Origin: Tribonema minus
Lineage: Eukaryota > Sar > Xanthophyceae > Tribonematales > Tribonemataceae
Reading direction: 5' to 3'
DNA length: 64,000 bases
Assembly (NCBI GenBank): GCA_017506865.1
Contig: JAFCMP010000446.1
Coordinates: 682,001 to 746,000 of the forward strand
Shown: positions 1-64,000 of the stretch, piece by piece
Numbering within the stretch: position 1 is the first letter of the stretch
Layout: each line of letters starts with the position of its first letter
Program-made: the position numbers and the translations under genes
The notes under the pieces: model-generated
Told to the model about the DNA's origin: nothing
Database searches by the model: none
What the model saw: only the letters and a program-made list of their open reading frames with translations

Positions 1-3000
1 CGCAGCGGCGGCGGCAGCGGCGACGGCCGCGGCGGCGGTGGCGGCGGCAGTGGCGGAGTCCTGATGGGGACGGGCAGGGCGGCGGCGGTGGTTCAGCCCT
101 ACAGTGACATCACACACGGCAGACGCAGCGCTCAGCGGATCAGCTCGCCCCGAGAACGAGACGTGAACTTTTTCACCGTGAAGATGAGCAGTCGTGCGTG
201 TTCGACTGGCACGGCGGCGCTGATGGCGGGCGGCGCTGCGTGCGCCACCGTCGCGTGCAGCCAGCTACGCGCACAACACAGGCAATGCAGCAGGGGCTGC
301 CAGGGCATTGAGATGGCGTTGAGGCTGAAGCCGAGAACGAGCCCGAGTGGCAGAGAGCGACCTTACGGATGGCAGCGATGCCCGGAAGGCTGCAAGATAA
401 TGCGGAGTCCGCCAACATCGCTCACAGCAGTGAAACATGGCAAAAAGCCTGTGAGCGTCTCAGCAGGCATTATTGGCTGGATGCCTGCAACTCTAGCACA
501 GCATCATATGGCGCTTTTCGTGCATACCTGTGACTGGCGTCTTTCTGCCACTTTGCTGCGCAGCGCTGTGGCCGCGGAACTGACGCCCTGCGCCAAAGAG
601 ACCAACGAGGCAGCAAATCAGCGGGCGAAGCATACAAACGTGAGCATACTTCAAAGAGGTAGTAGTTGGGGAACCGTCGTCCAACACTTGAGTGTGTTTC
701 TGTGCACGGTGCAGATGACCTAGGGGGCAGAATCAGCGAGTGAGGCATCACCTTGCAATGCTACACAGGCGTGTCAAGACTAATGCACAGGTATACAAGT
801 GCCCTACACGGAATCCCACTGGTGCACATGTCAAGCAGCAGCATGACCAGCAACACGCCGTGCAGGCACGGTGCGCAGAGGAGTGAGTGGTGCAGCGCGC
901 CTAGCTGGCACAGTCCTTGCCTTTGCGCCACTTCTAAGGCTGTTGGTGCTGTGAACAGCACGATCGCACTACAGAACACATACTCCGCCTGCAACCGCAA
1001 ACCCAACTACCGCTATGAGTCATGCAGCGGCGGCAGCACGCAGCACGCAGCTGTCACCAGCAGCTAACCCGAATCCAGCTGTTTGTCATGCAGCTGAAGC
1101 AGCAGCAGCAGCAACAGCCCAAGCGCTGCATCCAGAAGCCAAACTACCACTAACAGGCGTCCAACGGCGGCAGCAGCAGCAGCGCCAGCAGCAGCCACCC
1201 AAGCGCTGCATCCGGAAGCCCAACGACCACTAAAAGGCTCGCAGCAGCAGCAGCAGCAGCCGCAGCAGCAGCAGCCATCCAGGTTCTGCATCTGGAAGCC
1301 CGAACACCACTAATAGCAGCCCTCACCTGAGCGCTGCGGATGGCGGCAAGCGTGCGCAGCACACCCATCAGGTGCATTTGGAAGCGCGAACACCACTCTT
1401 TGGAGTCTGGAATTTAGAATTTGCTTTTGAAGCCAAACACCACTAATAGCGGCGCAGCGGCGCTTACCTGGGCGCTGCGGATGGCGGCAGCGTCTGCAGC
1501 ACGCCCAGCAGGTGCATTTGGAAGCCCGAACACCACTTTCTGAAGTTTGAAGTTTGGAATTTGAAATTCGCTTTTATAAGCCCGAACACAACTAATAATC
1601 GCGCAGCAGCCCTCACCTGAGCGCTGAGGATGGCGGCGAGCGTCCGTAGCACGCCCAGCAGGTGCATTTGGCAGCCCGAACGCCACTATTTGGAGTTTGG
1701 AATTTGGTTGAAGCCCAAATGCCCTTAATACTCACGCAGCAGCGCTCACCTGTGCGCTGCGAATGGCGGCGAGCGTCCGCAGCACGCCGAGCAGGTGCGG
1801 CGCGAGCCATAGGAGGTCGTGCCACGCGGTGGCGCTCTGCGCGACGGCCTCCGGCAGGCGCAGCCACGGCATGACGGCGCGCACCATGCGCTGCAGGTCC
1901 GCCATGACCCAGCGCCGCAGCGCCGCGACGCCGACCATGTGCGCGCGGATCATTGCCTGCCGGTGGCGACGTTGCCGCATGCATGTTATGGCAAGTAGTT
2001 AATGCAGGTGGACATGAAGTGTACGGTCTTTTAGTATCAGTTTAAGAGTATGTATCGGTGAAGCGCATGCATATCGCTGCAGGTCCGCCATCGCCCAGAG
2101 GCGCAGCGCCGCGACGCCGGCCATGTGCGCACGGATCATCGCCTGCGGGTGGCGACGTTGCTGCAATAGATTATAAAGTGACTTGAAGTATGCAGAGTGT
2201 ATGGTTCAAAAGTGCGTATAGGTGAAGCACATCACAATCACTGCAGGTCCGCCATGGCCCAGCGGCGCAGCGCCGCGACGCCGACCATGTACGCGCGGAT
2301 CATCGCCTGCCGGTGGGGGCAATGCCGCATCAAAGTGATTACGGACGTGCGCATGTAGTGTACCTACGATGCACCTGTTGAAGGCATACAGCTTGGTTGA
2401 TGTGTAAGGTTGCATCTTTCGAAGGTATACAGATTGGTAAAGTGTAGGGTTGCAAAGCGGCCTGTGGCACGCAATGGCCTGCCACAAGAGGGGACGTAGC
2501 GCATCGCACTTCATGTGCGCATACCCACGCTCAAGCGCATACCTACATACCTTCTGCTCCTTGTGCGCGAGCGCCAAGTGGTGCACCAGCAACGCCGTGG
2601 CCTCCGCGCCCGCGCCGCCGCTGCCGTCGCTGTCGCCGCCGCTGCCACTTGCACTCAGCGCAGCGGCGGCAGCGGCGGCGGCAGCGTCGTCATCGCTGGC
2701 GCCGTCGCCGCTGGCGCAGCGCCGCTGCACGAGCGCGTAGTGTTCCGCCATCTTCTCGTGCAGCTCGCGGCGGTGCGAGTGGCTCAGCTTCTCGTAGACC
2801 ACCTGAGGGCACACGCAGGCGGGGGCGCGGGCACGGCCGTTGAGCGCTGTCGCGTGTCGATCGCTGGTGTGTGTGCGTGTGTATATGTGGAGCAGCCGAG
2901 CACTGCGGCGGCGGTGCGAGTGGCTCAGCTTCTCGTAGACGACCTGGGGGGGCACAGCGGCTGAGCGCTGTCACACATCGTCTTGACAGGGTCTGTATAT

Positions 3001-9000: not shown

Positions 9001-9952
9001 CTCGCTCGCGCGCCCATGGTCGCGTGGCAGCAGCTCCCTGCAGACGTGCTGCAAGCACTCGGCGCGCGCCTCAGGGGAATCCACCAGCGCACCCTGGGAA
9101 GGGGGCCCGCCGCTCCCCCCCGCAGGGGGGCCCTGAAACGCGCCGGCCCACCATGGTAGAGCCGCGGAGCACACGACAACTTCAACAGTTGGCCTGAGCG
9201 CTGCTGCTGCTGCGGGGGTGACGAGCGCTGCTGCTACTGCTGGGGGGGCGTTGCTGCGGTGGGGGGGTGGGGGGGGGGAGGGGGGAGCAAGGGGGGCGGA
9301 GGTTGGCGTGAGTGAGCACTGCTGCAGAGAGCGGGCACGTGGTACGCGGCGGCAATGCACTGATGGTGTGTGGTGGAGAAACGCAATGTGCAGAGGCTCC
9401 AGCTGAGGTGTCTGTGAGATGCAACATATATAAGCAAATCAGTGATGCGAGGGACGGCATTCACTCTGACCCTCGTCCACTCCAACCCTTAACGCCCAGG
9501 CGCCATGTGCACATTTATGCCGTGAAGCAATACTGAACTTTTGATGGGAGCTGGGGGACTCTTGCGGGCATCAGGCAGGTATCTACGCGCATGTCTGTGA
9601 ATAGCACGAGCATTCACTGGATGCCGTGCTGTACCTGGCAAGTGTGTTTGCGCATCCATGAAGCACTCCTAAGTTTAGGAATCACTGGGCGACTCGCGCA
9701 GGCCGCACTGCTGCCATCAGGGCTAGTACGTGTGCGCATTTACATATCGTAACAGTCTCTGGGTGACGCCGCACCGTACACACATACTTCAAGTATATAA
9801 CTTCATGAAGAATGGTTTACATGCATACCTGGTGGCACCCGCGAGCACCAGCAAAGAAGCACACTACAAGCTAGAAGCATAATTCAGCATTTATGAGAGT
9901 CACTGGGTGACGCCCGCAGGCCGTTATGTACACATGTACAGAGAAGTATATA

Positions 9953-9998
<46 letters not shown>

Positions 9999-12900
9999 CT
10001 TTAAGAATTATACGACACATTTCACAGAAGTATATATAACATATATTACGCTAAAAGCTTGCACACAGAAGTCTTTTTGACTGGTGGATACGGTGGTACT
10101 GTTTGACTCGTGGCCAATTGCTGCAGCAGCGGCGACCACGGTTATTGGTGGAAGGCACTTGCGGCTAACCACCTTTGTCACCTAGAGCTCAACGATCTTT
10201 TGATTCGTTTTTCGTACATACAAGTGGAAGGCACTTGCGGCCAACCATCCCTTGTCACCTAGAGCTCCACATTTTTTTAATTCCTTTCCATACATATACT
10301 CGTACATAGAAATATAACATACATACCCGGTGGAGCCCGCCAGCACCAGCGGCAGCACCTGCAGCACCAGGCCCTGCATCACGCTGCGCCACGCGCCGCA
10401 CGGCGCGCTCGCCGCCGCCGCCGCCGCATCCGTCGCTGCGCAGAGGGGTGTGTGCGGTAGAGGCGCGCAGGTGAGCGCTGTTGAGCACTGGGCACATTAT
10501 CAGAGCTGCAACATGGGAATCGTTCTAGATCGGACCCTAGGTGCGGCACGCGGCAGTGCGCCATGCCGCCACCGCCGCGTCAGCCGCTGCGCAGAGGGGT
10601 GGCCGGGGGACGCGTCAAAGGGGTGCGGGTGAGCGCTGCTTCTCTAGCACGCACGGAGGTCTGCAACCTGAAGATCATCAAGCGATCCCAACCCTGCTAG
10701 GTGGAACCCTGTGTGCGGCGCGCGGCAGTGCACCGCTGCGCTGCGCAGGGGGGTGGCAGGGGGGAGAGAGGGGGGGGTGCGGCGGAGGCGCGCAGGCGAG
10801 CGTCTCTGAGCACTGGGCACATTCTCAGAGCTGCGGCAGGAAAAATTGCATCGGGCGATCGTATCGCTGCCAGAAACGAACTTTAGGTGCGGCGCACGGC
10901 AGTACGCCATGCCGCGTCACGTGACAGGGCGCGCTGCCGCTTGCTCTGGCGCGCAGGGCGCGGGGAGCGCAGACAGTAAGAGCGAGGGTGAGCCCAGGGG
11001 CTTCATGGCAGCTCGATCAGGGTCGGGGGCAAGGTCGCAACCTCACGATAACCCTAGCCCTACCTCGAGCAGTGCCGCGGACTGCACCTCATTCTGACCC
11101 CATCAGCCCTAGCCCTAAACTGTGGGCGGGGGCCCCTTTGCCCCTTAGGGTAGCGTTAGCGTTAGGGTTAGGGTTAGGTTTATCACAATGCGCTGCAGGT
11201 CAGCACCACTTCCGCACTGCAAACGGGTGCGCTCACGGCATCGCCGCTGCCGCCACTGCCGCCGCTACCTCCTCTGCGGTGCTCGAACGGAGCGGGGCGG
11301 GGGCTTCACCGACTTAACTTAAAGCTACCCTCAAACTGGGTATGGCCCCGTCAGCGTGTGATGTGCTGCAGGCAAGCCGCTGTTGACGAAAAACAAGCAA
11401 GCGCGCACTCTGTCGCCACCACTGGCCTCCTTGGCAAGCGCCTGAATAGCGGGGGGGACATAGGGGCACATGCAGAGCACCGCCACTATTGCGCCTGCGC
11501 CGTAACCCTAATCTTACGTACTTTCATACTGTGCGCAGGCTTGCTCTGTGATATGCTGTCGAGCACACACGGACGGGCCTGCGCTCACCGACGCTGCTGC
11601 CGCTGCCGTTGGCCTCCTTGGCGAGCGCGGCGGCGGCGGGGGGGACAAAGGGGTACGCGCCAAGCCCCGCCGCCTTTGAAGCTGCACCCTAATCCTAACC
11701 CTACGCACCTCCAACACTGCACGCGCTTTCGCTTTGTGGTATGCTGCCATGCAAACGTAACCGGGCCTGCACTCACTGGCGCCACTGCCGCGGCCGCTGA
11801 ACTCTTCCGCAAGCGTGGCGGCAGCGGGGGGGACAAAGGGGTACGCACTGCCACCTTCGTGCCTGCACCCCAACCATAACCCTGCCCCTACCTCCACACT
11901 GCGTGCGCGCTCACTCTGTGATGTGCTACCGTGTCAAAGCAGACGGGCCTGCACTCACCAGCACCGCTGCTGCCGCTGCCGCTGGCCTCTTTTGGGAGTG
12001 GGGCGGCGACGGGGGGGACAAAGGGGTACGCGTCTAGCACCGCCACCTTTGCGCCTGCACCCTACCCCCACCCCATAACCCTACCTCCTCACTGTGTGCG
12101 GGCTGACTGCGTGATACGCTGCGGTGCGAACGCAAACGGGCCTGCACTCACCGGCGCCACTGCCGCTGCCGCCGCCACTGGCCTCTTTGGCGAGCGCGGC
12201 AGCGGCGGGGGGAACGAAGGGGTACGCGCCGAGCACTGCCACCTTTGCGCCCAGCTTGTCCTGCCACTCGCGCACGCAGGCGCGCAGCAGGGCCGTCTTG
12301 CCCATGCCGGGGGCGCCGCGGAGGATGACCAGACCCCCTCTTTCCCCCTGCACGCGGACACAAAGCAGTGTCCGGCAAGGTTGGCGCTTTTGGGGGGGGG
12401 GCACGGGTTCGTGGGTAAATCTGTGGGAACGTGATACCATATCTAGGATGCACCCCCCCCCCTCCTCCCCCCCTGCACGCGAAAACACAGCAGCACTCAG
12501 CCAGGTTGACCTTGGGAGGGGGGAGCGGGGGGGGGAAGTCAACGTTCATGCCGTGGGCGCTGTGGAGAACGACGAGCCCCCCCTTTCTTACCCTGCTTGC
12601 GGACACAAAGCAGCGATCAGTAGGCGTGTGCACAAAGGACGACGCCCCCCCTTCCCCCCCCCCTGCTTTTGTGAGTGAAATGGCGATTGCAGGGGTGCAT
12701 AGGGCTGCACAGAGGGGCTTGCGGAGGTAGGAGTAAGGAGCAGTCACGTCCGGCATCGCAGCAGCGAGTTGTTGCGCATGCGCTGCGGGCGGTGACGTTC
12801 TTGTCCCTCCGCGCGCTGTGTCGCCGCAGTGTTGGAGGCATGCAAGACACGAAGCAGCCATTGACGTGCTTGGCATGGTTGGTAGGGTGAGTTCGCGACA

Positions 12901-28710: not shown

Positions 28711-30091
28711 TCATTTCCAGTGTATACCCGCCACAGGGGCACAATAGCGCCACACCACTCCATAATCTCTGGCAAAGCTTCTCTGATTGCGCAGCTGCTC
28801 TACTACAGGCTGCACAGGTGGCGCTTGACAGCCTAAGCACCGCTTCCAGCCCTCCCAGCAGAGCCCCCCTCCGCCGCCGCTGCCGCCTCCCGTGCCACCC
28901 GTTCTCGCAGGTGCTGGCAATACGGCATAGTCTCTTCGTCACACGGACACCCATCGGCGAGCACCCACTCGACGCACGCCAGTATCCGATCCACTGGACC
29001 GCGGAAGCCGTTGACAGACGGCTGCACGGCGCTGCTGATGTCCCGAGTTCCCCAAGGGCAGTCATGGGCGCATGCCCAGTGGAGCAGATCTAGCTGACCG
29101 CCCCTAAGCGCCGCCTGGCAGAGCGTTGTCGCGGGCCAGGGGGCGCCGTTGTCGCGCAGCCACAGGAGCGCCTGCAGCGCAGCGCACCAGCGAGGCGACG
29201 GCCGTTTAATACGGTATGATAAGAAACGTCAGAAGGGCAACTTCCGCACTATTCACTTGAAGTTCAGGGCATTGCGCCGCGAGGGTCGACTTGCACTGCC
29301 ATATCCTCCTCGGCGACTGAACCGACCCATTGCGCATAGCTTTTGCTGCACGGGCTGCACAAGACGGGGGCTTGACAGACAGTGAATGGATGCCGACCCA
29401 TTGCGCATAGCTTTTGCTGCACGGGCTGCACAAGACGGGGGCTTGACAGACAGTGAATGGATGGTTGGCGGAGACACCGCTGCCGCCGCGTTTGAACGGA
29501 TGCCCCTCTCACTACAATCACTGGGGGCGAGTGCTGTACGCAGGGCGCGACGTGACACGCACTGATTATGCGACTTTGTTGCCTCATGCCGCTGCACGCG
29601 GATGCCACCGCACCTTCAACTGGCCGTGGTGAGCCGCTCGCCAGCACGTCCACTCATCCACGGAGCGCCCTGGCTGCGCGCCCATTCGAGCACCTCAACG
29701 CGGCCGTGCTGCGCGGCGGCGCTGCACGTCTCGGTCGCGCGCCAGGCGGCGCCCCACGGGTAGTCCATGCCCCACGGCACGTCACTCTCGTGGGCAAACT
29801 TCAAGACCGCCAGGTCGCCGCGTGCAGCAGCGCTCCACAGGATGACGCTATTCCTAGGGCAGCCGTTGTCAAAGGCCCATGCCAGCAGCGGCACGGACGA
29901 CGCCATGTGCTTTATGGAGGTGACGAGGTGCAGGTTCTGCGGGTGGCCGCGGAGGGTGCAGCACGGCAGCAGCGGCAGGCGGCTACGGAAAGCCCTGTGG
30001 ACTGTGGCGTAGAGCGCGCGCCAGCCGCGGCTCACGAGCGCCGCGTTGAGGTAGTGGAACCCGACGTATCTGAAGATGGGAAGCCACAGGC
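28711..30091 (-). CDS. F-box-like, ankyrin-type repeat protein (possibly frameshifted)
   Basis: Two coding blocks. The 5' block starts after an acceptor at 30092-30093 and reads LPIFRYVGFHYLNAALVSRG, which resembles the F-box-like N-terminus common in algal and oomycete ankyrin proteins. It then runs through repeats such as LLAWAFDNGCP, AAARGDLAVLKFAHESDVPW and AAQHGRVEVLEWARSQGAPW. The 3' block (about 29210-28711) continues ALQALLWLRDNGAPWPATTL, ALRGGQLDLLHWACAHDCPW and CVEWVLADGCPCDEETMPYC. Near 29655-29660 the frame after GAPW shifts: the next repeat (DEWTCWRAAHHGQLKV) is one frame off, as if one base were lost, so it may be a recent pseudogene, or an intron or read error intervenes. The first exon was not found. 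Partners and function are unknown. Confidence 0.6.
29322..29463. repeat. Perfect 71-bp tandem duplication
   Basis: Units 29322-29392 and 29393-29463 are identical (ccgacccattgcgcatagct ... gacagtgaatggatg). The repeat lies between the two coding blocks of the ankyrin gene. Perfect identity implies a recent event. Confidence 0.97.
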
Positions 30092-30563
30092 CTGCAAGGA
30101 GAGCAGATACCACATACAAGATGAGTGAGCACCTGCGTGCGCGTGCAAGTAGTAAATCGCGGTCCTGACCTGAAGACACTTACGTGCAAACGCAGCAATA
30201 ACCATGCGCCTTGTTCCTCTAGTGCGCAAAATCGATTCGAAATGCATGCTATAGCTGTAGCTACCCAGGATGATACATTTCTTGAGATCGTCACTCGCTG
30301 GCGCAATAAAAACAGATCGCCGCACGAATAAAACAACACTCGGCACATCTGAACCATGAACCGCAGAGCACTCAGTAGTTTGATTACCGCCATGGGAGCC
30401 CGCTTCGGCCAGCACGCCCCATCGTTCACGCCTCCCACTAACTTGGTACCTCCATGTGTGTGCGGTTTGCATGGGTCACACGTGACGCGTCCACTTCAAG
30501 TTGAACTTGTTGCGAGTTCAGAACTGAGTGTGCTGCAGAGCGTGCTCTCCTTCGGTGCTAGCC
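30092..30563. promoter_or_regulatory. Divergent intergenic interval between ankyrin and PsbP-domain genes
   Basis: The ankyrin gene (minus) and the PsbP-domain gene (plus) are transcribed away from each other. The interval must hold the ankyrin first exon and both promoters. No TATA box or other element could be named from the sequence. Confidence 0.35.
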
Positions 30564-33500: not shown

Positions 33501-36148
33501 ATCGCATTGCGCATCTGCAGCGTGGAGGACGCAGTGCGGCGGCGCCAGAGGCAAGTGCGCGGCGGCAAGCGACAGGACCGTCAGTCGCAGTGCGCATATC
33601 ACAGGAGTAGCAGCCCGCTGGCGGCACGCCGCCGTATAAACCCCGCGCTAACCCGTATCTCATCCACGACACCCCATCGCCGTGCATGCGCAGCGTGCAG
33701 GACGCGGTGCGGCGCCGCCGCTCAAATCCAGTAGCAGTACGCCATCTCATAGAGCCTATGCCAGCACGTATCACTCCCCTCTGAAGCTCAACACTTCTTC
33801 GCAACGTGCATCGCAACGTGGACAACGCGGTGCGGCGGCGCCGCAGGGACAGTCAGTTGCAGTGCGTACATCATATTGGCAGCAGCCCCCCTGGCAGTAC
33901 GCCGCCGCATAGACCCCGCGCTAGCCCGCATCTGATCCACGACACCCCATCGCCGCGCATGCGCAGCGTGGAGGACACAGTGCGGCGCCGCCGCTCAAAT
34001 CCAGTAGCAGTACGCCATCTCATAGAGCCTAGGCCAGCACGTATCACTCCTTTCTGAAGCCCAACACTTCTTCGCAACGTGTATCGCAACGTGGACAACG
34101 TGGTGCGGCGGCGCCGCAGGGACAGTCAGTTGCACTGCGTACATCATATCGGCAGCAGCCCCCCTGGCAGTACGCCACCGCATAGACCCCGCGCCACTAC
34201 TCATCTCATCGAATACACGTTATTGCCACGCATGCGCAGCGTGGAGGACGCGGTGCGGCGCCGCCGCGGCCGCGCGCTCGTCCCGCTCGCCGCCTTCGGC
34301 CCGCCGGGCGCGAGCGGCGCCGGCGCTGCACGCGAGAACGTCAGTGTCGTGCGCAGCGCGCTCGAGCGCGGCTTCAGCCTTCGCGGCACGCTCGGCGCGC
34401 CTGAGGCGGCGGCGCGGCGGCTGCTTGACGAGGCGATAGCGCCGGAGGGGTCGGGGCGCGAGGCGGAGCTGCTGAGCGCTGTTGCGGAGGCGCGCGCGGG
34501 GGGCGTGCCTGAGGTGTACGTGTTCGAGTACACGATCAAGGTGCGTGGGGGTATGGCGCGATCATGTATTGATTGATGTGTATGACCTGCTGATGAAGTT
34601 GAGGCGGAGCTGCTGAGCGCTGTGGCGGAGGCGCGCGCAGGGGGCGCGCCTGAGGTGTACGTGTTTGAGTACACGATCAAGGTGCGCGGGGGTGTGTGTG
34701 TATGCGCGGGCCTAGGCGCGCACGTGTGTTTGACTGCGCGTGCGCGTGTTGTGACTGTGTGTTGTACGCTATGGCGACGCGAATGTACTTCAAGACTGAC
34801 CTATTTATGAGGTGGAGCTGCTGAGCGCTGTGGCGGAGGCGCGCGCGGGCGGCGCGCCTGAGGTGTACGCATCTGAATACACCATCAAGGTGCGTGGGGG
34901 CGCCGCGGGTGTCAGCCTCTGTGTGTGCGTGTTGGTGTGGACGTCTTGACTGTTGGTACGCAGTGGCAGTGAGTCGAGGCATTAATGTATGACCTACTGA
35001 TGAATTTGAGGCGGAGCTGTTGAGCACTGTGGCGGAGCCGCGCGCGGGCGGCGCGCGCGCGAGGTGTACGTGTTTGAGTACTGGTCAAGGTGCGCGCGGT
35101 GTGCGCAGTGTGAGTGAGTGTGTGTGTGTGTATGTGTTGCGTCGGTTGGCGCGCAGTGGCAGCAGGACGGATCTGGCGTGAACGCATGGCGTGCTGATGT
35201 GACAAATCAAGAGTTGGACTGGACGAGGCTGCGTCGCCTCAAGTGCTGTGTTGCGGAGCGCTGCTGCGGAGGCGTGCGAGAGGCGCACGCTAGAGGCTTG
35301 CTGGTTTCTTTACAAACTCAGCTTAATCTCATGGGCGTTGTCACCATCGCGCAGTTCAGTACGCCTACAGGACGGCAGCCTTTTGAGATAATGAAGATGT
35401 GCATTCAATTCTCGTCACCGCTCCTGAGGGTTCAGGTTAGCATAATAACGCCCGCACAATCGCACCTCACCCCCTGCCACTTCCCCCGCAGTCGAGCCGG
35501 CTGTTTCCGCACAACGTTATCGTCATCGCGGCACGCGGCGATGACCGCTTTACGTTCGACCGCGGTTCACACTGCAGAAGCCTCCCCAAGTGCTCAAACG
35601 CTCAACAATCAACTGCGACGTATCTTCAGTCATTCCCGTAGACAAGCAGGTTGTTCCTACGCGACGTCTTCGTCATCACAGCCCACTGCGCCCCTCCTGA
35701 CGACCTGTTCTGTGCCGACTGCCTAACCTCAACTGTGCGACCAACCTCAAGTGTGTGACGTGCTCCCTGCAGACGAGCAGGCTCTTCCTGCACACCATGT
35801 GCGTCATCGCGGCTTGCTGTGTCCCTCCTGAAAACCTGTCCTGTGCCGACTTTTCAACCTCAACTATGTGATGTGTCCCTTGTCATCCCCGCAGACGAGC
35901 AGACTCTTCCTGCACAACATCTGCGTCATCGCGGCTCGCTGTGTTCCTCCCACTTGCTCTTGTGCTCAACCTCAACTGTGTGACGTGCTCCCCTGCAGAC
36001 TAGCAGGTTGTTCCTGCACAACATCTGCGTCATCGCGGCGCGCGGCGACGAGCTCTTCACGCTCACCGCGGTCGCGCCGCAGGAGCAGTGGGAGCGCAAG
36101 CGCGCGCAGGCGCGGAGGATCGCCGACAGCTTCCGGCTCACGCAGTGA
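30564..36148 (+). CDS. PsbP-domain protein, plastid-targeted, 7 exons, 379 aa
   Basis: Exons 30564-30818, 30912-30954, 31050-31141, 31490-31688, 32279-32378, 34240-34540 and 35999-36148 (stop TGA) total 1140 bp with matching phases. Residues 1-24 are a signal peptide (ALCAVLPFLC core, PAQS end); the following SYIFGTTPAASSRRR looks like a transit peptide, together a bipartite leader for a complex plastid. Residues 131-185 include one hydrophobic segment (LYTGLSAAVAVGGNLFGV). From about 185 comes the PsbP fold: FKRCVNKEHGFEFVYPQEW, an AFGP-like segment, then NVSVVRSAL, VYVFEYTIK, LHNICVIAARGDELFTLTA and a C-terminal helix. PsbP-like proteins act in the thylakoid lumen or membrane in photosystem assembly. 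Intron 4 starts with GC, not GT. Introns 4, 5 and 6 hold copies of exon edges. Confidence 0.9.
32049..32600. repeat. Copies of PsbP-domain exon 5
   Basis: 32051-32112 repeats the exon start with its acceptor (gcacggctttgagtttgtgt) almost exactly, with CAC replacing CAG near its end. 32552-32600 is a decayed copy of the exon's 3' end (gaagcaggctgagagggt.tg). The true exon is 32279-32378 because only it continues in frame to a donor that fits exon 6. Confidence 0.9.
33200..34230. repeat. Higher-order array carrying copies of the start of PsbP-domain exon 6
   Basis: The exon start and acceptor (catgcgcagcgtggaggacg plus cggtgcgg) recur near 33388, 33513, 33685 and 33958, with variant copies (gcaacgtggacaacg.ggtg) near 33808 and 34090. 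The array has a higher order: about 33685-33950 and 33955-34225 are 270-bp units that match along their length, and 33388-33660 is a more diverged third. Confidence 0.92.
34590..35290. repeat. Copies of the 3' end of PsbP-domain exon 6
   Basis: Copies at 34604-34681, 34813-34890, about 35011-35085 and a weak one near 35255-35290. The first is 78 bp, opens after an AG, reads ELLSAVAEARAGGAPEVYVF and on to TIK, and ends at a GTGCGC donor, so it has the form of a complete phase-0 cassette exon. The second is also open; the third is decayed. Confidence 0.92.
35490..35950. repeat. Copies of the start of PsbP-domain exon 7
   Basis: Four copies (about 35492-35555, 35641-35685, 35773-35815, 35893-35940) of the acceptor and first codons (cagacgagcaggctcttcct plus gcac...tgcgtcatcgcgg). 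The period is about 105-145 bp. The real exon starts at 35999. Confidence 0.92.
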
Positions 36149-40200: not shown

Positions 40201-43200
40201 CGCGTGCGCGCTGCGCTGTGCGACGCGCACGCCGCAAGCTACTTCACAACTTCTACGGCCTAGGCCGGCCGTACTTCAACAGTTTCAGCTGTACTTCACC
40301 AGTGTACTGATTGGACCGTACGTTGCTCCGTGCAATGCGCGCAGGTGGTGAGCTGGTTCAACTTCTACTGCCTGTGCCGGCCGTACTCCAACAGCCTCGA
40401 GGCAGCACTCACCATTGCGGCGCTGTACTTTTGGACGCCGCCGCGGTACGTAAAGCAGGTAAGTCCCACACTCAACCTCACCCTTCTTTTAACTACGACC
40501 CCAATGCCAACAATAACCCTACATACAAGCAGGTGCACGCCACTCTAACCCTAACCCTACTTCTAACTACAACCCAATGCCAACACTACCCCTTCAGGCA
40601 GGTGCGCGTGCCATGCTAACCCTAACTCTACGCATGACTACAACCCCAATGCCATCACTAAGCCCTACAAGCAGGTGGGCGCCGCGCTCACCCTAGCCCT
40701 ACTTCTAACTACGGCGCCAATGCCAACACTACCTCTACAAGCAGGTGCGCGCGCCGTGCTACCCGTAACCCTACTTCTAGCTACTACACCCAATGCCAAC
40801 ACTAACCCTACAAGCAGGTGGGCGCTGTGCTAATCCTGACCCTACGTTTAACTATGAACCTAATGCCACCACTAACCCTACAAGCAGTTGCGCGCCGCGC
40901 TAGCCCTAACTCTTACTTCTAACCCCGACTTCAATACCACCCTTGAACTCAATGCTAACCCAACCCCCTGTTTGCGTTCAGCAAGGAGCTGAGTTGCCAA
41001 CCAGGTGTGCGCCGTGCGGACTTCAACCCTAGTTCCAATTTCCAATCCTCTTGCGGACCCTATGTTACACCTTACCCTTTAAGCCTGACGCTTGCTCTGA
41101 GCGCCTGGCCTGACTTGGTGTTCTGAGCAATTGCTGGCGCGCCCTGCGCCACGATGACGTTTTCACGCTACAAACTTCAACTGCTGCGCCATCAACCGTC
41201 ACCCACTGACGAACCCCACTCCTGCTGAACCCTATGCGCCTGCTGCACTCTCCTCCTGCCAGAGCACCGCCGATGCCGACGCAAACCCCGCTTTCGGTGA
41301 CCAGCAGCTCGGCAGCAGCAGCGGCAGTGAGCAAGCCGGCAACAGCAGCAGCACTGACCACAAGCCTGGCAGCATTGTCGACCAGCCCTACAACGGCAGC
41401 GGCAGCGGCAGTGACCCACCTGACACCACCACCACGACCACCACCACCACCACCAGCAGCAGCAGCGGCAGCAGCAGCATTGCTCAGCCCGGCGAGCGCC
41501 TCGCACTGCTGCTGGCGGCGCTGTGCGTGGCGGCGCGGCCGACGAGCGCCGCGCTGTGGGCGGCGGCGGGCGCGCGCCGCCTCGCGGCGCTGCCGCGCGC
41601 CGCGCTGCTGCCGCGCTACGCCGCGCGCACGGCGGCGCCGGTCGTGGGCGGCGTGCTGCTCGCGAGCGCGGCGCTCGACAGGCTGCTGTACGGGCGCTGG
41701 GTGTGCGTCGCGTGGGAGTTCTTGAAGTTCAACGTGCTCAGCGGCGGCAGCGCGGCGTTCGGCGTGCAGGTGCGCGCGGCTGTGTAGCAAACTTCAACTT
41801 GAGGTTATCTGCGCGCTCATGATGGCGGCGGCTTGTCTTCTTGCGACGTGCGCGCGGCGGCAGCACGTGTTCACGTGGCTGTCGGTGCGTATTTCACGCC
41901 TACCTTTCTTGTCACTCAACCTGCAATCTGCAGCATCGGCTCCTATCGATCAACTAAAGTCACCGCCACCGCTGCCCCTCCTCCGCCGCTGCAGCCATGG
42001 CACTGGCTCTTCTCCCAAGGCCTGCCCGCCGTCCTAGGCGCGACGCTGCCGCTATTCCTGCTGGGCGCCTACAACAGCTTCTCTGGCAGCGGCGGCGGCG
42101 GCGGCGGCGGCGGCGCAGCGTGGGTGCCGGCGCTGGTGCTGTGGCACACGGCAGTGCACAGCGTGAGCGCGCACAAGGAGTTCCGGTTCCTGCTGCCGGT
42201 GCTGCCGCTGGCGCACGTGTGCGCGGGGCGCGCGCTGCAGCTGCTGGTGCTGCGCCGCGGGCGCCACGACGGCGAGGTAAGCATATATCTGTATTTGTCT
42301 TCTAATGGAAAACACATCAGAAGATCGTAGAGCTCTAGGTGACAAGGGATGGTTGGCAGCAAGTGCCTTCCACCAATAATAATGTTCATAGCGGAGGCCG
42401 AGAAAGAGTTGTGGAATGATGTGTTGTTGAGGTAGCCATTGATCTTCTGTCTGGAAAATAGAGGCGCTGCAGCTGCTGGTGCTGCGGCGCGGGCGCCACG
42501 ATGGCGAGGTATGTATGTATTGGTGTCGAATTAATCCAAGTTTCAAATTTCAATGTACCTACCAGAGAGTGTGATGACGGGTTGTGATTCAATGTGTTGA
42601 TTTGGTAGTTGCTGATCATGTGCTGGTGAAGTACAGACGCTGCAGCTGCTGGTGCTGCGCCGTGGGCGCCACGACGGCGAGGTATTCATGTACATTGTTT
42701 TCCTTTCAAAACACTGTACCTACCAGAGAAGTGTTGTGGCGAGTCGTGGTTCATGAACACTTTGTTTTTTGATGGAGCTGGTCATTCGTTGCTGCAGTAT
42801 GTGATTGTGTTCATTATACCTATCAGAGAGTGGTGACCGGGTTGCTGGTCAGGCTATCCACTGTAGATATATAGCGCGCTGCAGCTGCTGATGCTGCGGC
42901 GCGGGCGCCACGACCGCGAGGTACGCATGTGTTGTTACCAAGTATACCTGCCAGAGAGTGTGATGACTTGTGACATTCACAGCTGCTGGTGCTGCGCCGC
43001 TGGCTCCATGACGGCGAGGTATGTATGTACACGTATCAGTAGAAGTATATGTACCAGAAGGTGTGATGACCAGTCATAGAAGAATGTGTCGTTCCAGTAG
43101 CTGTCGTTGTTGTTTTGTCATCTGCTACATAAAAGTGCACAGCACGCTGCGGCTGCTGGTGCTGCGCCACGGGCGCCATTACGGCGAGGTACATGTAGTT

Positions 43201-44215: not shown

Positions 44216-44246
<31 letters not shown>

Positions 44247-46788: not shown

Positions 46789-51491
<4,703 letters not shown>

Positions 51492-53863: not shown

Positions 53864-54550
53864 CAGCATGGCTGAAGGCAGCGCACGCACAACATACCCT
53901 TTATTTGATCATGCCTACATATGACTGGTGAATGGGTGGATCATGCTGAAGTACATAGCACTGGTGGCTTGTGATTCTCAGGGTGCTGCTGCATGCACAT
54001 GTGGTTGCATGTGCAGGATCGTGCGGCGCAATGCCTGCTGTATTGCAGTGTGCGTGTTGGTATTTACTGGGTGCAGCTTCACAATGACGATAATGATGAG
54101 TGAACTGCCAAGTGCTTGTCACATTGAAGAGGTCATGGACCAACTCAACTGAATGAATGCCAAGCCTGAATTAATCGTCAGCATCAGGTGAAGAAGGGAG
54201 AGTCATGAGCATTGCAATATCCTGAGCAAAGAATGCGCGCACACATAAGTCGCATGATTTTCTGCAGAGTTCACAATCCACTGGGTGTCAAAAGAACACA
54301 ATCTCCGAGATAGTGACCCCGTCATCAACCTGGAGTTCAATGTTCAAGTGCAACAGGTGACTCGCAAACACTTGCTGGTGTGTATGCTGCTGCTTCATGC
54401 TATGATAAGGTATGCCGCAACATCAAGCACGGCTGATTGCCGATCGCCGACATGCAACGTGACACATCTGCCTGCAGCAAACATGACTCTTGCGACCAGA
54501 GCCGAAGGCGAGAGGAGGCAGGCCGTCCGCCACCTTAACTGCTGAGCAGG
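53864..54550. other. Intergenic region
   Basis: Between two plus-strand genes. Nothing recognisable apart from unremarkable short open frames. A 5' exon or UTR of the next gene may lie in 54280-54550. Confidence 0.45.
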
Positions 54551-56878: not shown

Positions 56879-57564
56879 CAGCGGCAGTCACGCACTCGCT
56901 GCGGTGCCATAATGATACAAAGACAACACGATGGATGGCGAGTTGTGACGCTTTTGGTGGCCTCATGTGCTGCGGTCGAGGTTTTGCAGCTGGTTCTGCG
57001 TTGATGAAAGTGTGCCTGTGGCACAGATCTGGTGATCACGTGGTCGTGCAGGCTATATTACGTCGGCTTGGCCGCTTTTGCATGCGTCCAGCATTTGTGC
57101 TTCAGTTCCTGTGTTGCAGACAAGCACACCTGCGCACCCGAGCCCCTTCAGGGCGAGCGATTCTCAATCAAGAAAGGTGCAAGCTTTTTCGCGGCGATGA
57201 CTCTCCAGCGCGGTTGGCATTGCTGCACAGACTGCGTAAACCGCTTCAGCGTAACTGAGCTTGGCAAGTACTTTTTCTAATGCACTGCAGCTTTACAATA
57301 GACTTCGCTACCACTGTGCCAGACGCTGCCGGACCACTTGGTGTGATCCTTAGCAGCTGCTCTCTGTGTCACGCACAGTGCAATGCATTTGAATCGCGCA
57401 CCAGTGTGCATGCACTGCATACCATGCAGATTCACCCGTTTCGCGGCCAGAAACTGTTGAAATTGCCGTGGAACAGGCCGTAGACAAATCTTTGCCGAGT
57501 TGAGGTTCGATCACGAGCATAGAGACCAGGACAGCATCGCAGTATTGTGAAGCAGCACAGCAGC
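56879..57564. other. Intergenic region before glutathione reductase
   Basis: Both flanking genes are on the plus strand. An open frame at 56935-57258 has no recognisable motif and is not called as a gene. Nothing else is seen. It should hold the glutathione reductase promoter. Confidence 0.45.
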
Positions 57565-60500
57565 ATGGCGACCAATGGAGAGACGCACTTTGTGAGTGAG
57601 CCGTAGTGTCGCTGTCAACCATACTGCGCATCTTGTCGGCTTGTGAATCCAGCCTCACCCTGTTGCACTTGTTTCTTGCAACTTTTACTCAGGATCTCAT
57701 TGTTATAGGCGGTGGCTCTGGTGGCATGGCCTGCGCCCGCAGAGCTGCGCAGTACGGCTGCAAGGCCGCCATCATTGAGGCAACAAGCAAGCTGGTGAGT
57801 CTCAACTTCAATTTCTTCGTTGAGGAGGGTTTTGTGTGCCCTCGATACATTCCAACGGGCTTCCTGCGACTTGAAAGCTCGATTTCTGAGGATTTTTTCA
57901 CGCAGCCAATGTGCAAATTTGCGCATGTTTCAAGGCAACAGGCACGTTGATGACACGGAGATGCAAGTGTTTTTGCAGCACTTGCCCTGTGCCGTTTGCA
58001 GTGCTTTGTACATGCACTACTGCACTCCCTGCCAGCATGCAACAATCATCACAGTGCCTGGCTGTTTTCAGGCCATACATACATACCTTTGTCATCAGCA
58101 CATTCGCAACGCGCCGCCCTTGCGCGCGACCGGCTGCAGGGAGGGACGTGCGTCAACGTGGGCTGCGTCCCAAAGAAGATCATGTTCAACACGGCTGCGT
58201 TCAACGAGGTGAGATGGCGGCAGGCAGCGCTCAGCAGGAATTCTTGAGCACTGCCCCATGCGTCGCCGGCGGAGACACGAGCGCCGCTTCAGGCACTTGG
58301 GTGGCAGAGTCATGAGAATCCAAATAGAAGTAATCTCTTTGTACAACCAAGGTCACGGGGTTTCAAAATTCGCAGGAACACGCGCAATGATTTGCGCAAT
58401 GATTTCATCATTCTTCACACATCAAGGAATCACGCATGTGTTGGATGGATTGTCAGCATTTTGGAATGATGGAGATATCACAAGTTCACACATACATAAA
58501 TAACCTTTTCATGTAGCGATTACTGCCGCGCCCCCGGTTGAACGCGATGCATGAGTGGTTTGTGGCACGCGACGGTACAAAAGCCTTGATTGAGTTAAAA
58601 TATCAGCAATTACTGAACGTGAAAACGCTTTCTGTTTGCAAAGATCTATTTTGATTTTTTTTCCAAAAAAGTACTGCGTAGCCAGCAGCTGCGCACATCT
58701 TGTCATACTGCCGCGGCGCCCGCGGCGCTATCACAACTACATACACAGCTCAAACCTTCACATTTAAGTGCTGCACTCACCTGGCTCAGCCTGGCTGTGC
58801 GCTGATGAATGCAGCTAGAAGTCCACTGCTGCCTTCCTTTGCAATGACTTTGTAGAGCACTCCTACTGGTAGCAACGTGTATAACGCGGCTGCATTGTGG
58901 CGGCAACAAGCGGCCTCAGAGCCCTTGCGCAATTCTGACTTTGACTGTCCTCATAATCAGGATGTCACCATCACAATATGAACTCAATTGCGTGCCGGAT
59001 GCGCGCAGCACTTCTGCCAATGGCACAAGAGTCTCCCAGTGCCTGGCATTAGCGTCAGTCAACCCTTGCCCCAACCCTACATACATACCCCCCAACGCTG
59101 AACCTGACCCTGACTGCGCATGTGCCGCACGGCGGGCGCCACTACGGCTACGACGTGCGCGACTACAGCTGTGACTGCGGGAAGATCAAGGCTATGCGCG
59201 ATGCGTACATACGGTCTCAGCATCAGTCAAGCTTGACCCCAATTTAAACTGTACATGCATACCCCCCAACGCTAAACCTGACCCTAAATGCGCAGATGCT
59301 GCACGGCGGGCGCCACTACGGCTATGACGTGCGCGACTACAGTGTCAGTGTCGCGAAAGGAACTCCATCGTGTGCACGCCGTTCGCAGCACGTATGCCAA
59401 TGGCACAGGAGTCTCCCAGTGCCTGGTCTCAGCGGCAGTCAACCCTTGCCCCAAACCCTACGTACGTACCCCCTAGCTCTGAACCTGACCCTAATTAAAT
59501 TCTTTTGAACTGGCCGCCGAGCGCTGCTGCGCAGATGCTGCACGGCGCGCGCCACTACGGCTACGACGTGCGCGACTACAGCCGTGACTGGGGGAAGATC
59601 AAGGCCATGCGCGACGCGTACATGCGGTATCAGCGTCAGTCAACCTTAACCCCAAAGCAAACCCTGCATACATACCCGCAACGCTGAACGTTGGCCCTGA
59701 CTGCGCAGATGCTGCACGTTGGGCGCCACTACGGCTACGACGTGCGCGACTACAGTGTCAATGTCGCGAAATGAACTCCATCGTGTGCACGCGGTTCGCA
59801 GCACGAATGCCAATGGCACAGGAGTCAGTCAACCCTGAGCCCAACCCTACATACATACTCCCCAAACGCTGAACCTGACCCTAATTTACTTCTTTTGAAT
59901 CGGCCGCCGCGCAGATGCTGCACGGCGGGCGCCACTACGGCTACGACGTGCGCGACTACAGCTTCGACTGGGGGAAGATCAAGACCATGCGCGACGCGTA
60001 CATCCGCAAGCTCAACGGCATCTACATGAGCAACGTGGAGAGGGCGGGGATCGCGTTCATATCGGGCTTCGCGGCGTTCGTGGGGCCCAAAACGCTGCAG
60101 GTGAGTGATTTTTTTTTAATGCTGCGCTGCCCTTATGGGCAGCACTGCTCAGTGGTCGGCTGCGAGCCGCGTGCGATGGCGCGACGCGCGGACCGACTTA
60201 CGAGTTCACAACGCCTTGTTCATATCGGGCTTGGGGGCGTTCGTAGGGCCCAAAACGCTGCCCTGGGTTAGGGCAGCAGTGCTGGGCGTGCGACGGCAGG
60301 ACACGCTGACGGGCTTGGGAGTTCACAAGGCCTTGTTGATATCGGGCTTGGCGGCGTTCGTAGGGCCCGAGACGCTGCAGGCGAGTGAGGATTGTTGTTG
60401 GTGCTGTGCGGCCCTGGGGTTAGGGGTGGAGGGTCCGTGCTGCACAGAAGCGCAGCTGCGCAGCACCGCGAAGAATGCGAGGAGCCTTGCTAGGTCAGCA

Positions 60501-63500
60501 GTGTGCAAGGCCTTGAACGTTGTATACAGTGTGCCCTGCACTGCAGTAGAGTAGGTGCTGCGGCCGCCATTCTTTTGGGACCTATGAGCATTCGACTGCC
60601 TTTGTCGGTTTCGCGTGGTGCTCGTTTCACTGTCATGTTCATCGATCAGGAAGGGCTTCGCACTCTGCTGCGCCAGAATGACAGCGGCGCAGCGCACGGT
60701 AGCTGCACTGATGGGCGATTGCGGGGACGGCGGGGAGACTCCGCGCGAGCCAGTCCTGCTGGGCTTTGCGATCAGCGCTAACGGGCCCTGGCCTGAGGTA
60801 CTGCGCACCCGCTGAGCATCATCCGCCAAGCGGCTGTGCGCGCATCCTGAGCACTGCCATCGAACCTTCTCGAGTACCACTTTGAAGCTGTGTGAGCACC
60901 GCTGCAGTCCCGCTGAGCGTCGCCCTATACACATGCTGACCATATCACACCACAGAAACGTGCTGAGCATCGCTGCAGACCGGAATCTCTGCTGAGCATC
61001 ACTGCAGCCCGCCCGTGCACTGCTGCGCTTCAGGGTTATGCTGAGCGTTGCTGCGCACCCGCTGAGCACTGCCACACACTTGCCGAGCACCACTGCAGAC
61101 AGCCTGCTGAGCACCGGCCCCGTGCGCTGCCCGCTGCTGCGCGCACACGCCCAGTGGACGACGTCCAGTATTCACATGCTGAGCATCGCTGCAGACAGCT
61201 GAGCATTGCCCCCTCGCACTGCTCGCTGCTGCGCGCACACGCCCAGGTGGACGACGTCCAGTCACTCACCCCGCTAAGCATCACTGCAGATTTGCTGAGC
61301 ATCGCCCCGTTGCGCTGTTCGATGCTGCGCGTGCGCCCAGGTGGACGGCGTCCAGTACACGGCGCTGCTCACCTGCTGAGCACTGCCACAAACCTGCTGA
61401 GCATCACTGCCTGCTGAGCATCCCCCCTGCGCTGCTCGCTGCTGCGCGCGCGCCCAGGTGGACGACGTCCAGTCACTCACCTGCTGAGCATCACTGCAGA
61501 ACAGCCTGTTGAGCATCGCCGCCGTGCGCTGCTCGCTGCTGCCCAGGTGGACGACGTCCAGTACACGGCGGAGCACATCGTTATCGCAGTCGGCGGGCAG
61601 CCGACGATGCCGGACATCCCCGGCGCGGAGCTGTGCATTGACTCCAACGGCTTCTTTGCCATGGAGACACAGCCGGAGCGGTGCGTTTGCGCATACATAC
61701 ATACCTCATACCTCGGAGTATCAGCTGTGCAAGCTTTGGCAACGGTGGCAGTGGTATGTAGCCCGAAATGACACAACATTTTAAAAATTGAACGAGGTCC
61801 AATTCTGGCAAGCACAACATTGGTTAGGAGGGTCCAGACGCTGCCGCCGCTAAACCCCGCTATACCTTGAAGCCTGTCGTCCGTGCGATGTTCAGCGCAA
61901 GCTTGTCAGAAACCCCTGCCTGACCCTGGTCGTCTGCCTGAAATCGCCATCGCTTCACCTGCCTCGACCGCTGCGTGAGCTCTGACCTAAGACTTGACCT
62001 ACTTCCCCCACTCTTGAACATCTTCCTCGCGCTACGCATCATGAAAACGAATCAATAGATCGTAGAGCTCTAGGTGACAAGGAATGGTTAGCCGCAAGTG
62101 CATTCCACCAATAACCGTAGTCGCCGCTGCTGCAGCAATTGGCCGCGAGTCAAACAGTACTATTATATTGGCTGTACGAGCATTGGTGATTGCGCTGAAG
62201 CTGGCGGGCATCTTCGAAGCGCTGCGCACCAGCATTCACCGTTGTCAGGATCTTCACATGTTCATTCCTGTGCCTTGTCCACATGCGCAGCACAGCATCG
62301 ATCTCTCCACATGGTTATTTGTATGTGCCCCTCAAGTACATTGCCATTATCCTGTAACATTCCTCATTCAAACAGCATAGCGGTGGTGGGCGCCGGCTGC
62401 GGTTGAGCTGGTAGACAACTTCAATGCGCTAACTTCAATGTCACCAGTCCGTCTCACTGTCACAATCTCCACATCATACGTACTGTGTCATGACTTTGAA
62501 ATATGTTGATCATCGCGTCCACAATGTATTGCAACGCACAACGTAGCCGTGGTGGGCGCCGGCTACAGCTGGTGCACACCTTCAACGCTCTGCGAGCTAG
62601 CAGTCGCCATTTGTCATATCAGTGCGGCAACCACAGTTATTGGTGGAAGGCATATGCGGCTAACCACACCTGGTCACCTAGAGCTCTTCGATCTTTTGAT
62701 GCGTTTCCATCAATGATGATAATGTGCGTGGTAGTTGATGTACTTTGAAGTACACGAACTTCTCTAGGCCTACTGCTGCTCATACTTCTACACTCATCGT
62801 TCGACGCGCGCGCAGCATAGCCGTGGTGGGCGCCGGCTACATTGCGGTGGAGCTCGCGGGCATCTTCAACGCGCTAACTTCAATGCGCTAACTTCAATGG
62901 CACCAGTCCGCCTCAAAGTTCACAATCTCCACGTCATACCACCGTGTCCCTCCTTTCAAGTATCGCGTCCACATTGTATCTCACACGCGCAGCATGGCGG
63001 TGGTGGGCGCCGGCCACGTCGCGGCGGAGCTTGCGGGCACAAATTTTCTCTCGTTCTGGTGTCATCATCAAAAATACTCAAATGACTTATTGTCTGCATG
63101 CACGCAGCATAGCGGTGGTGGGCGCCGGCTACATTGCGGTGGAGCTTGCGGGCATCTTCAACGCACTGGGCACCAACACGCACCTCTTTGTGCGCCACGA
63201 CCGGCCGCTGCGCACGTTCGACCCCACCATCACCTCCGCTCTGCTGACTGAGGTGTGTCGTGAAACCAAAACCATGTATATCTATCAAAAACAAATCACA
63301 AGATCGTACAGCTTTATTTTATTGACTTGGAACCTAGTATGGCTCTGTAAGACATAGGTTATTATATTAGCCTATGTTAATATTGTGGCATGCTTTGTGC
63401 GCCACGACCGGCCACTGCGCACGTTTGACCCCACCATCACCTCTGCTCTGCTGACTGAGGTCTGTGGTAAAGCCAAAACCATATATATTTATCAGAAACG

Positions 63501-64000
63501 AATCGAAAGATTGTACTTCTAGAGCTCTATTTTATTCTAATAATAAACTTGGGACCTAGTACAGCTTTGTAAGACATGGGCTATTATATGAGTGTACTTC
63601 TAGAGCTCTATTTTATTCTAATAATAAACTTGGGACCTAGTACAGCTTTGTAAGACATGGGCTATTATATGAGCCTATGTTAATATTGTGGCATGCTTTG
63701 TGCGCCACGACCGGCCGCTGCGCACGTTTGACCCCACCATCACCTCTGCTCTGGCCGAGGTTCGTGGCAAAACTGAAACTCCAGTTTTCGGCTATACTCT
63801 GGGACCTTAGGAGTACAGCTCTGTGAGACATCGGCTATCTGCCTATGTTAGTGTTGTGGCATGCTTTATGGGGTGACATCGGCCGCTGCGCATATCTGAC
63901 CCCACCATCACCTCTGCTCTGCTGACTGAGGTCCGTGTTCAAACAAAACTTCGTTTTCTTATTGTTGATGTGGGACCTAGTATGGCTCTGTGAGACATCG
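57565..64000 (+). CDS. Glutathione reductase, 5' two thirds, runs off the window
   Basis: Reduces glutathione disulfide with NADPH; FAD flavoenzyme. Exons 57565-57591, 57693-57794, 58140-58208, 59915-60100, 61547-61680 and 63108-63252, all in matching phase, give about 221 residues. Seen in order: [11 protein letters not shown] (FAD site, from residue 10), [13 protein letters not shown] (redox-active Cys47 and Cys52), [32 protein letters not shown], then the second Rossmann motif [14 protein letters not shown] and [12 protein letters not shown], whose two arginines match those that select NADPH in human GR. These features fit GR rather than trypanothione or thioredoxin reductase. No targeting leader is seen before the FAD motif, so this start gives a cytosolic form. 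The interface domain lies beyond 64000. Introns 3-6 are dominated by copies of exon edges. Confidence 0.93.
59115..59765. repeat. Four copies of the start of glutathione reductase exon 4
   Basis: Copies at about 59120-59215, 59295-59345, 59535-59632 and 59709-59757 repeat gcagatgctgcacggcgggc plus gccactacggctacgacgtg (exon at 59915). The first and third extend about 95 bp into the exon. Spacers share accctacatacatacccccc and caatggcacaggagtctccc. Confidence 0.95.
60215..60382. repeat. Two copies of the end of glutathione reductase exon 4
   Basis: About 60219-60262 and 60336-60380 repeat catatcgggcttggcggcgt plus tcg.agggcccaaaacgctgc. The second is followed by gcgagt, a GC-type donor. Exon 4 is therefore duplicated at both edges: start copies before it, end copies after it. 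Confidence 0.93.
60810..61480. repeat. Array of TGAGCA motifs and copies of the start of glutathione reductase exon 5
   Basis: The exon start (cgcccaggtggacgacgtcc plus ag) occurs at about 61150, 61247, 61341 and 61458 before the true start at 61547, with periods of about 90-117 bp. Between and upstream, ctgctgagcatc.ctgcag-type text recurs some twenty times in 60810-61500. Confidence 0.93.
62044..62161 (-). mobile_element. Dispersed intronic repeat, copy 5 (full length)
   Basis: A reverse-complement copy that matches 10098-10212 along its whole length, including the gagtcaaacagtac end and the tgctgcagcaattggccgcg block. The two copies fix the element at about 115-118 bp. Confidence 0.85.
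62376..63040. repeat. Four copies of the start of glutathione reductase exon 6
   Basis: At about 62376, 62541, 62816 and 62993 the text cagcatagcggtggtgggcg plus ccggcta recurs before the real exon (63108). The 62816 and 62993 copies extend through gcggtggagct.gcgggcat. The three other true copies share a tail gctaacttcaatg or a reduced form. Confidence 0.95.
62625..62709 (+). mobile_element. Dispersed intronic repeat, copy 6
   Basis: Matches the element at 10098 from gcgaccacggttattggtgg (here gcggcaaccacagttattgg) through cacctagagctc to cttttgatgcgttt. Sense orientation with respect to glutathione reductase. Confidence 0.85.
63276..63935. repeat. Array with copies of the end of glutathione reductase exon 6
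   Basis: Copies at about 63388-63461, 63699-63760 and 63870-63931 repeat ttgtgcgccacgaccggccg through accccaccatcacctctgct with a gaggt.cgtg donor. The spacer holds atatttatcagaaacgaatc (related to the 3' end of the dispersed element) and gacctagta.agctttgtaag. Confidence 0.93.
63512..63673. repeat. Perfect 81-bp tandem duplication
   Basis: 63512-63592 and 63593-63673 are identical (tgtacttctagagctctatt ... gggctattatatgag). It lies inside the array after glutathione reductase exon 6 and is probably recent. Confidence 0.97.

Follow-up and report, generated by a model that had tools for sequence, protein, structure and literature searches.

The window considered here is a stretch of 64,000 nucleotides from the yellow-green alga Tribonema minus (Xanthophyceae), positions 682,001 to 746,000 of contig JAFCMP010000446.1, which spans 899,524 bases within a 158-Mb, 554-contig assembly. 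It holds a Rab-family gene and the first part of a glutathione reductase (GR) gene, along with several exons recognizable by their protein domains. Introns of these genes contain tandem copies of the edges of the adjoining exons. A first-pass annotation of the window, made from the letters alone, had described such copies, and their presence is confirmed here: a strong copy of the adjoining exon's last or first 50 nt occurs in 17 of 37 introns (nine ends and 12 starts), with none in 2,104 cross-gene comparisons (0/1,052 ends and 0/1,052 starts).

Exon borders were obtained by placing own-species T. minus proteins on the genome with a spliced protein-to-DNA aligner written for the analysis. Five proteins were mapped, namely Rab and GR in the window, CCT-gamma on contig C5 (559,003 bases), CCT-theta on contig C135 (1,271,169 bases) and CCT-alpha, also outside the window. 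The first four are public gene models, while CCT-alpha is a translated Trinity-assembled transcript from EukProt (P0001). The Rab model has four exons, GR 13 (extending beyond the window), CCT-gamma nine, CCT-theta seven kept and CCT-alpha nine kept; spurious first exons of CCT-theta (one) and CCT-alpha (two), outside the stretch used, were left out of the intron counts. Mapped exons contain no mismatching codons, intron-split codons being left unscored, except in the first exons kept for CCT-theta and CCT-alpha, which are truncated, and at a single codon at the CCT-alpha end. The resulting sample comprises 37 introns and 31,886 bp. Within the window, the exons of the two mapped genes and the copies of their edges are as follows; copies of exon starts and ends occur in GR introns 3 to 6.

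51390..51491, minus strand: Rab-family gene exon 1 (protein P0241 mapped, 34/34 codons)
49931..50044, minus strand: Rab exon 2 (38/38 codons)
49729..49770, minus strand: copy 4 of the Rab exon 3 start with AG, in Rab intron 2 (83% identical)
49602..49654, minus strand: copy 3 of the same start with AG, in Rab intron 2 (85%)
49442..49538, minus strand: copy 2 of the same start with AG, in Rab intron 2 (94%)
49267..49364, minus strand: copy 1 of the same start with AG, in Rab intron 2 (90%)
48887..49159, minus strand: the real Rab exon 3, with the intron end at 49160 (91/91 codons; Ras family, E 4e-31)
47842..48063, minus strand: Rab exon 4 (74/74 codons)
57565..57591, plus strand: GR exon 1 (P0242, 9/9 codons)
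57693..57794, plus strand: GR exon 2 (34/34 codons)
58140..58208, plus strand: GR exon 3 (23/23 codons)
59116..59755, plus strand: four copies of the GR exon 4 start, before the exon (59116-59213, 59290-59342, 59479-59626, 59703-59755)
59915..60100, plus strand: GR exon 4 (62/62 codons)
60218..60415, plus strand: two copies of the GR exon 4 end, after the exon (60218-60261, 60335-60415)
61099..61473, plus strand: four copies of the GR exon 5 start together with the preceding intron end (61099-61170, 61192-61262, 61293-61364, 61406-61473)
61547..61680, plus strand: GR exon 5 (44/44 codons)
62189..63039, plus strand: five copies of the GR exon 6 start, two of them too short to include the AG position (62189-62240, 62365-62430, 62544-62567, 62808-62875, 62988-63039)
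63108..63252, plus strand: GR exon 6 (49/49 codons); the gene runs on past the window
63393..63949, plus strand: first three of seven copies of the GR exon 6 end, the others lying past the window (63393-63504, 63696-63753, 63880-63949)

Edge alignments were accepted at score thresholds of 36 (the 37-intron test and the intron-length comparison), 40 (the listing of longer edges and the identity comparison) and 44 (further exons). Antisense controls yielded 0/37 ends and 0/37 starts, and a wrong-side control in the exact gene models gave 0/32 ends and 0/32 starts (0/64). A search with longer edges, restricted to the adjoining intron in the five models, recovered 34 copies at 5' junctions and 34 at 3' junctions, of which 58 cover the splice site.

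The repeats are mostly local. A self-comparison of the window, which had been suggested as a check, was carried out and returned 162 direct-repeat alignments; in 154 of them the two starts are separated by under 3 kb, and in the other eight by more. Tandem arrays are common in the window, with periods of 66-273 bp (the earlier estimate was about 65-270 bp). It is therefore very unlikely that a mobile element or RNA-mediated copying placed exon edges into introns in the manner of introners, since the 2,104 cross-gene comparisons gave no copy at another gene and so few of the repeats are distant. Several local alignments do break off a few bases from the splice site, which is what a copy delimited by that site would show; in the arrays printed for inspection, however, the intron flank is by eye repeated as well, scrambled by indels in a C/T-rich tract. 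For that reason the idea that each copy ends precisely at the splice site was given up. A spacer-identity test of the intron flank separated little from shuffled sequence (0.764-0.784 against 0.762).

The trait extends to other genes, for which exon positions are given by the extent of the Pfam match only. At seven further chaperonin loci, copies were found at 13 of 30 exons. The total is 34, with 16 pieces of exon starts lying upstream, 18 pieces of exon ends lying downstream and no copy on the opposite side; loci L019 and L023 are without any copies. Among these paralogous loci the cross-gene control gave 4/1,481. In the search with the CCT family profile, read by eye, four repeated partial matches appear in 56 rows, and two rows on contig C51 were taken as copies rather than exons. 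Profile positions in that search run continuously from real exon to real exon while the copies merely repeat positions, an independent argument that the copies are not exons. The same pattern appears at the protein level in kinesin genes at three further sites, where reading by eye gave three clear cases in 134 rows (smaller overlaps were left uncounted). Four Pfam-supported exons of the window were also searched; three have copies, 12 in all, every one on the expected side. These three are listed below, and the fourth, an ankyrin-like exon, has no edge copies.

34328..34549, plus strand: PsbP-domain exon, Pfam match extent (PF01789, E 2e-8)
34601..35094, plus strand: three copies of the PsbP exon end, after the exon (34601-34690, 34809-34898, 35008-35094)
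41992..42258, plus strand: PIG-B-like exon, Pfam match extent (PF03901, Alg9-like mannosyltransferase, E 2e-14)
42464..43168, plus strand: four copies of the PIG-B-like exon end, after the exon (42464-42490, 42638-42662, 42874-42902, 43142-43168)
12189..12368, minus strand: AAA/NACHT-like P-loop exon, match extent (PF13191, E 1e-5, under the curated cut-off)
12547..12613, minus strand: one copy of the AAA/NACHT-like exon start, before the exon
11449..12055, minus strand: four copies of the AAA/NACHT-like exon end, after the exon (11449-11495, 11620-11678, 11809-11863, 11996-12055)

Both sides of these 34 further exons were searched, and all 46 copies, around 16 of them, obey a single side rule: copies of exon ends lie after the exon and copies of exon starts before it. 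The first-pass annotation had stated this rule, with GT and AG attached respectively, and it holds throughout, as does the attribution of copies to the Rab, GR, PIG-B-like and PsbP exons; the label of adenylyl cyclase was not confirmed, four pieces tested for it giving no Pfam match. By the DNA test, copies are present in 12 genes (four of five mapped genes, five of seven further chaperonin loci, one of these resting on a single copy at threshold, and three of four further window genes). The edge-copy trait is widespread yet uneven among genes.

Each copy is 80-100% identical to the real edge across the aligned stretch. Over the exon part, the mean identity is 91.5% between copy and real edge but 87.0% between one copy and another, a difference that fits a constrained exon accompanied by freely decaying copies. 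In multi-copy arrays the real exon edge is the closest relative of 31 of 46 copies. The claim that copies decay with distance survives as a tendency rather than a strict rule, given that the nearer copy is more similar to the real edge in 48 of 71 pair comparisons, less similar in 21 and tied in two. The printed arrays repeat head to tail, and within one array many copies have their exon-side end at a common position (+92 and +39 in Rab, -67 in GR intron 6 and -59 in CCT-gamma intron 5), which suggests a few founding events followed by unequal exchange. Whole-exon tandem duplication was rejected as the source, for none of 31 repeat families touches both kinds of junction or holds a complete exon with both splice sites; the copies are edge pieces.

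Such divergence also bears on whether the assembly placed one region several times, an artefact that the first-pass annotation had named among the findings that would overturn it. Two perfect tandem pairs exist (29322-29463 and 63512-63673), as an artefact of this kind would produce. Against this, copies differ from one another by a mean of 13% over the exon part, have their own spacers and are present on eleven contigs, so that an assembly origin is scarcely credible. The two pairs, of 71 bp and 81 bp respectively with 100% matches, look young; the second lies within GR intron 6, away from a junction.

As the earlier annotation had proposed, the introns carry decoy splice sites. The splice site is kept in 54 of the 58 copies that cover it (GT in 25/27, AG in 29/31). 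In each array the five gene models nevertheless use the 5' site lying farthest upstream and the 3' site lying farthest downstream, and the copies are skipped. This choice of 3' site runs counter to simple scanning for the first AG past the branch point. Under exon definition, splice sites are chosen across the exon, and this would favour the pair of sites that bounds an intact exon. The intactness of the decoys might be taken to indicate that the copies serve as spare or regulatory splice sites, for alternative splicing or transcript-level control. Such a function is quite unlikely, however, as decoy use would keep an open reading frame in only 3 of 53 cases (1/25 and 2/28), the copies diverge among themselves and none is used in the models. 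Aberrant use of the decoy sites, with destruction of the products, may occur.

The contribution of the copies to intron length is appreciable, although the assertion that they make up most of it is unsupported. When local repeats of every kind are counted, they take up 10,413 of the 31,886 intron bp in the five genes (33%), and the edge families alone 8,965 bp (28%). Introns with copies have a median length of 1,003 bp (n = 18) as against 515 bp without (n = 19; p 0.0005), where 18 introns count as having copies compared with 17 in the strong-copy test, a consequence of counting edge alignments only above fixed scores. Longer introns give copies more room, and hence a causal link from copies to length is not proved by this comparison.

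Taken together, the observations are probably best explained by a lengthening of T. minus introns through recurrent tandem duplications that straddle an exon-intron junction and are tolerated because the outermost sites stay in use. Short duplications, with a unit of about 80-200 bp, would recur across the junction. Where one falls over a 5' splice site, the upstream copy would remain the real exon end and the second copy, with its GT, would pass into the intron; over a 3' splice site, the downstream copy would remain the real exon start and the other copy, with its AG, would become intronic. The protein would stay intact as long as the spliceosome kept to the outermost pair of sites, probably as those sites define the exon. 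Unequal exchange could then multiply the copies and move older ones deeper into the intron, where they would decay. Junction-spanning events would, in addition, be over-represented relative to wholly intronic duplications.

Taken by itself, the side rule is not proof of anchoring at junctions. The rule would follow from any tandem duplication straddling one junction, as other placements would break the gene while one-junction duplications survive if the outermost sites are used. Tandem duplication could be blind to position, with selection purging exon-internal events and sparing intronic and one-junction ones, and the edge pattern would then reflect survivorship and the longer visibility of copies beside a conserved exon. 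The 31 repeat families found in gene spans offer some encouragement for this explanation, which is nonetheless rather doubtful. Ten families lie at 5' junctions, 12 at 3' junctions, nine are intron-only and none is exon-internal; intron-only families are about as dense (nine in 31.9 kb of intron) as families outside the gene spans (four in 13.35 kb). Median best identity is 90.9% for edge families and 82.5% for intron-only families, as one-sided and two-sided decay predict.

The observed junction-spanning share, 22/31 (0.71), is more difficult to reconcile with blindness. Simulations combined position-blind duplication with a purifying-selection filter and were passed through the same repeat detection as the real data. 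Constant-rate settings gave mean edge shares of 0.28-0.50. Where edge families numbered at least 15 on average, as they did in 23 settings with 114 replicates, no share above 0.62 was reached; a further setting of that kind averaged 0.42. The addition of homology-driven expansion brought the mean share to only 0.27-0.36, with single replicates up to 0.60, whereas a fourfold weight on junction-spanning events produced 0.67, near the observed value. Blind simulations with means of 15-33 edge families also predict 16-43 intron-only families, compared with the nine observed. Indel rates were set over a range whose simulated outcomes bracketed the real visibility of arrays stripped of their exon parts (15/23 overall and 3/10 for single-copy arrays), although no setting matched both. 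The low-complexity filter masks 2.7% of real intron sequence, which does not account for the scarcity of intron-only families. The nominal binomial P for 22/31 is 0.003 at an expected share of 0.45 and 0.025 at 0.52.

Several results weigh against a junction-biased, general process. Two burst-type blind settings averaged shares of 0.80 and 0.85, albeit with few edge families (means of 2.2 and 7.3) and 4-6% coverage. Repeat coverage has no peak at the junctions, as blind duplication would have it, being 0.28-0.32 over the 10 exon bases nearest the junction and 0.35 deep in the intron; with exons masked it is lowest beside the junctions, where the masking itself trims alignments at the border. 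Edge copies are, moreover, the more readily detected: 8 of 23 arrays are lost from view once the sequence derived from exons is masked. CCT-alpha, whose protein alone among the five derives from a transcript, shows one 21-bp match and no strong copy across its eight introns, and the HSP70 profile search, read by eye, displays no clear separate repeated partial match in 80 rows. Of ten random stretches on other contigs, whose gene content is undefined, nine fall below the window's 32% share of local repeats (0-31%), and the only one above it, L015 (C250:20001-30000), is satellite-like with 98% covered by local repeats. Two overlaps between adjacent HSP70 exon matches, of 21 and 30 profile positions (C548:486356-487936 and C190:755980-757113), might reflect additional edge copies joined to the exon by read-through.

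The proposal that the duplications are anchored at splice junctions is accordingly left with moderate support: the share of 22/31 exceeds the 0.62 limit of the well-populated blind replicates, whereas the coverage lacks a peak and the size of the excess depends on the simulation. A few-fold bias toward junction-spanning duplication is, on balance, probable. That the duplication is actually targeted to splice junctions, by a border-tied mutational process that repeatedly copies the edge, can be advanced only tentatively.

Intron length is commonly attributed to transposons or neutral insertion. In T. minus, a visible share of intron DNA appears to come from local duplication, largely across splice junctions. 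Should this be junction-targeted, intron growth would be directional, and introns would be loaded with intact decoys that splicing would consistently have to ignore while choosing the outermost pair. The arrays constitute a natural experiment on splice-site choice, presenting real introns where a 5' or 3' site is accompanied by one to eight near-copies in their native place, and the copies may serve as raw material for new introns or alternative exons, datable array by array.

Some further features of these genes and of the window may be recorded. In the five mapped genes, 31 of 37 introns are in phase 0, the upstream exon ends in AG at 28/37 and the downstream exon starts with GT at 15/37, a strong AG|GT proto-splice pattern. 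Long C runs occur near 3' splice sites, at 50060-50180 and in a 372-bp CCT-theta intron (L021), there also beside a copy. Ankyrin-like open reading frames (ORFs) lie at 28836-30179 on the minus strand, one of two giving a weak Ank_4 match; it is one exon of these that was checked for edge copies. A candidate ORF for the unknown membrane protein of the first-pass annotation, the one ORF searched, gave no Pfam match. Degenerate telomere-like CCCTAA repeats are present at 40476-40923 (an array with a 71-bp period) and 47464-47556, and a (TA)26 microsatellite at 9947-9998 (96% matches). A tRNA scan of the 64-kb window found none.

Among the matches listed from the open-access literature, a body that leaves subscription journals mostly outside, no genome-wide splice-junction duplication arrays and no such account of Tribonema introns appear, a result that points only weakly to novelty. 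Introners are mobile copies dispersed among genes, the product of a lineage-specific process that shapes the intron content of many genes. The process in T. minus resembles them in being lineage-specific and in shaping the intron content of many genes; it differs in that the copies are local to their own exon, and the similar copies across different genes that mark introners were absent from all but 4 of the 1,481 comparisons among the paralogous chaperonin loci.

Other known systems begin with a local duplication. In the tandem genomic duplication model, an intron is gained by duplication of a short coding sequence, with splice signals that keep the mRNA unchanged (PMC3443670). Its head-to-tail, exon-containing duplication is recognizable in the tandem arrays of T. 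minus and their common exon-side ends. The duplicated AGGT within one exon that would supply both splice sites is not, as none of the 31 families is exon-internal and 22 span an existing junction. The model makes a new intron within an exon (PMC3443670), whereas the T. minus unit spans an existing junction and needs no new intron; it is possible that older T. minus introns were gained through AGGT duplication. In Drosophila, novel intron positions have arisen by partial exon duplication in which one copy became intronic (PMC2891723). These are a handful of cases defined by their new intron positions, and the accessible text of the study describes no arrays of edge copies of the kind present in T. 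minus.

The closest precedent found is a tandem duplication in the potato RdRp gene, which crosses one intron-exon boundary and carries a putative branch site, pyrimidine tract and 3' splice site (PMC4974935). As in that case, the T. minus unit crosses the exon-intron junction together with its splice site, in 22 families and with the site kept in 54 of 58 copies. The potato duplication is described as one event in one gene, creating a new intron via a newly activated 5' site (PMC4974935), whereas in T. minus there are many events in many genes, existing introns are lengthened, and the duplicated sites go unused in the gene models.

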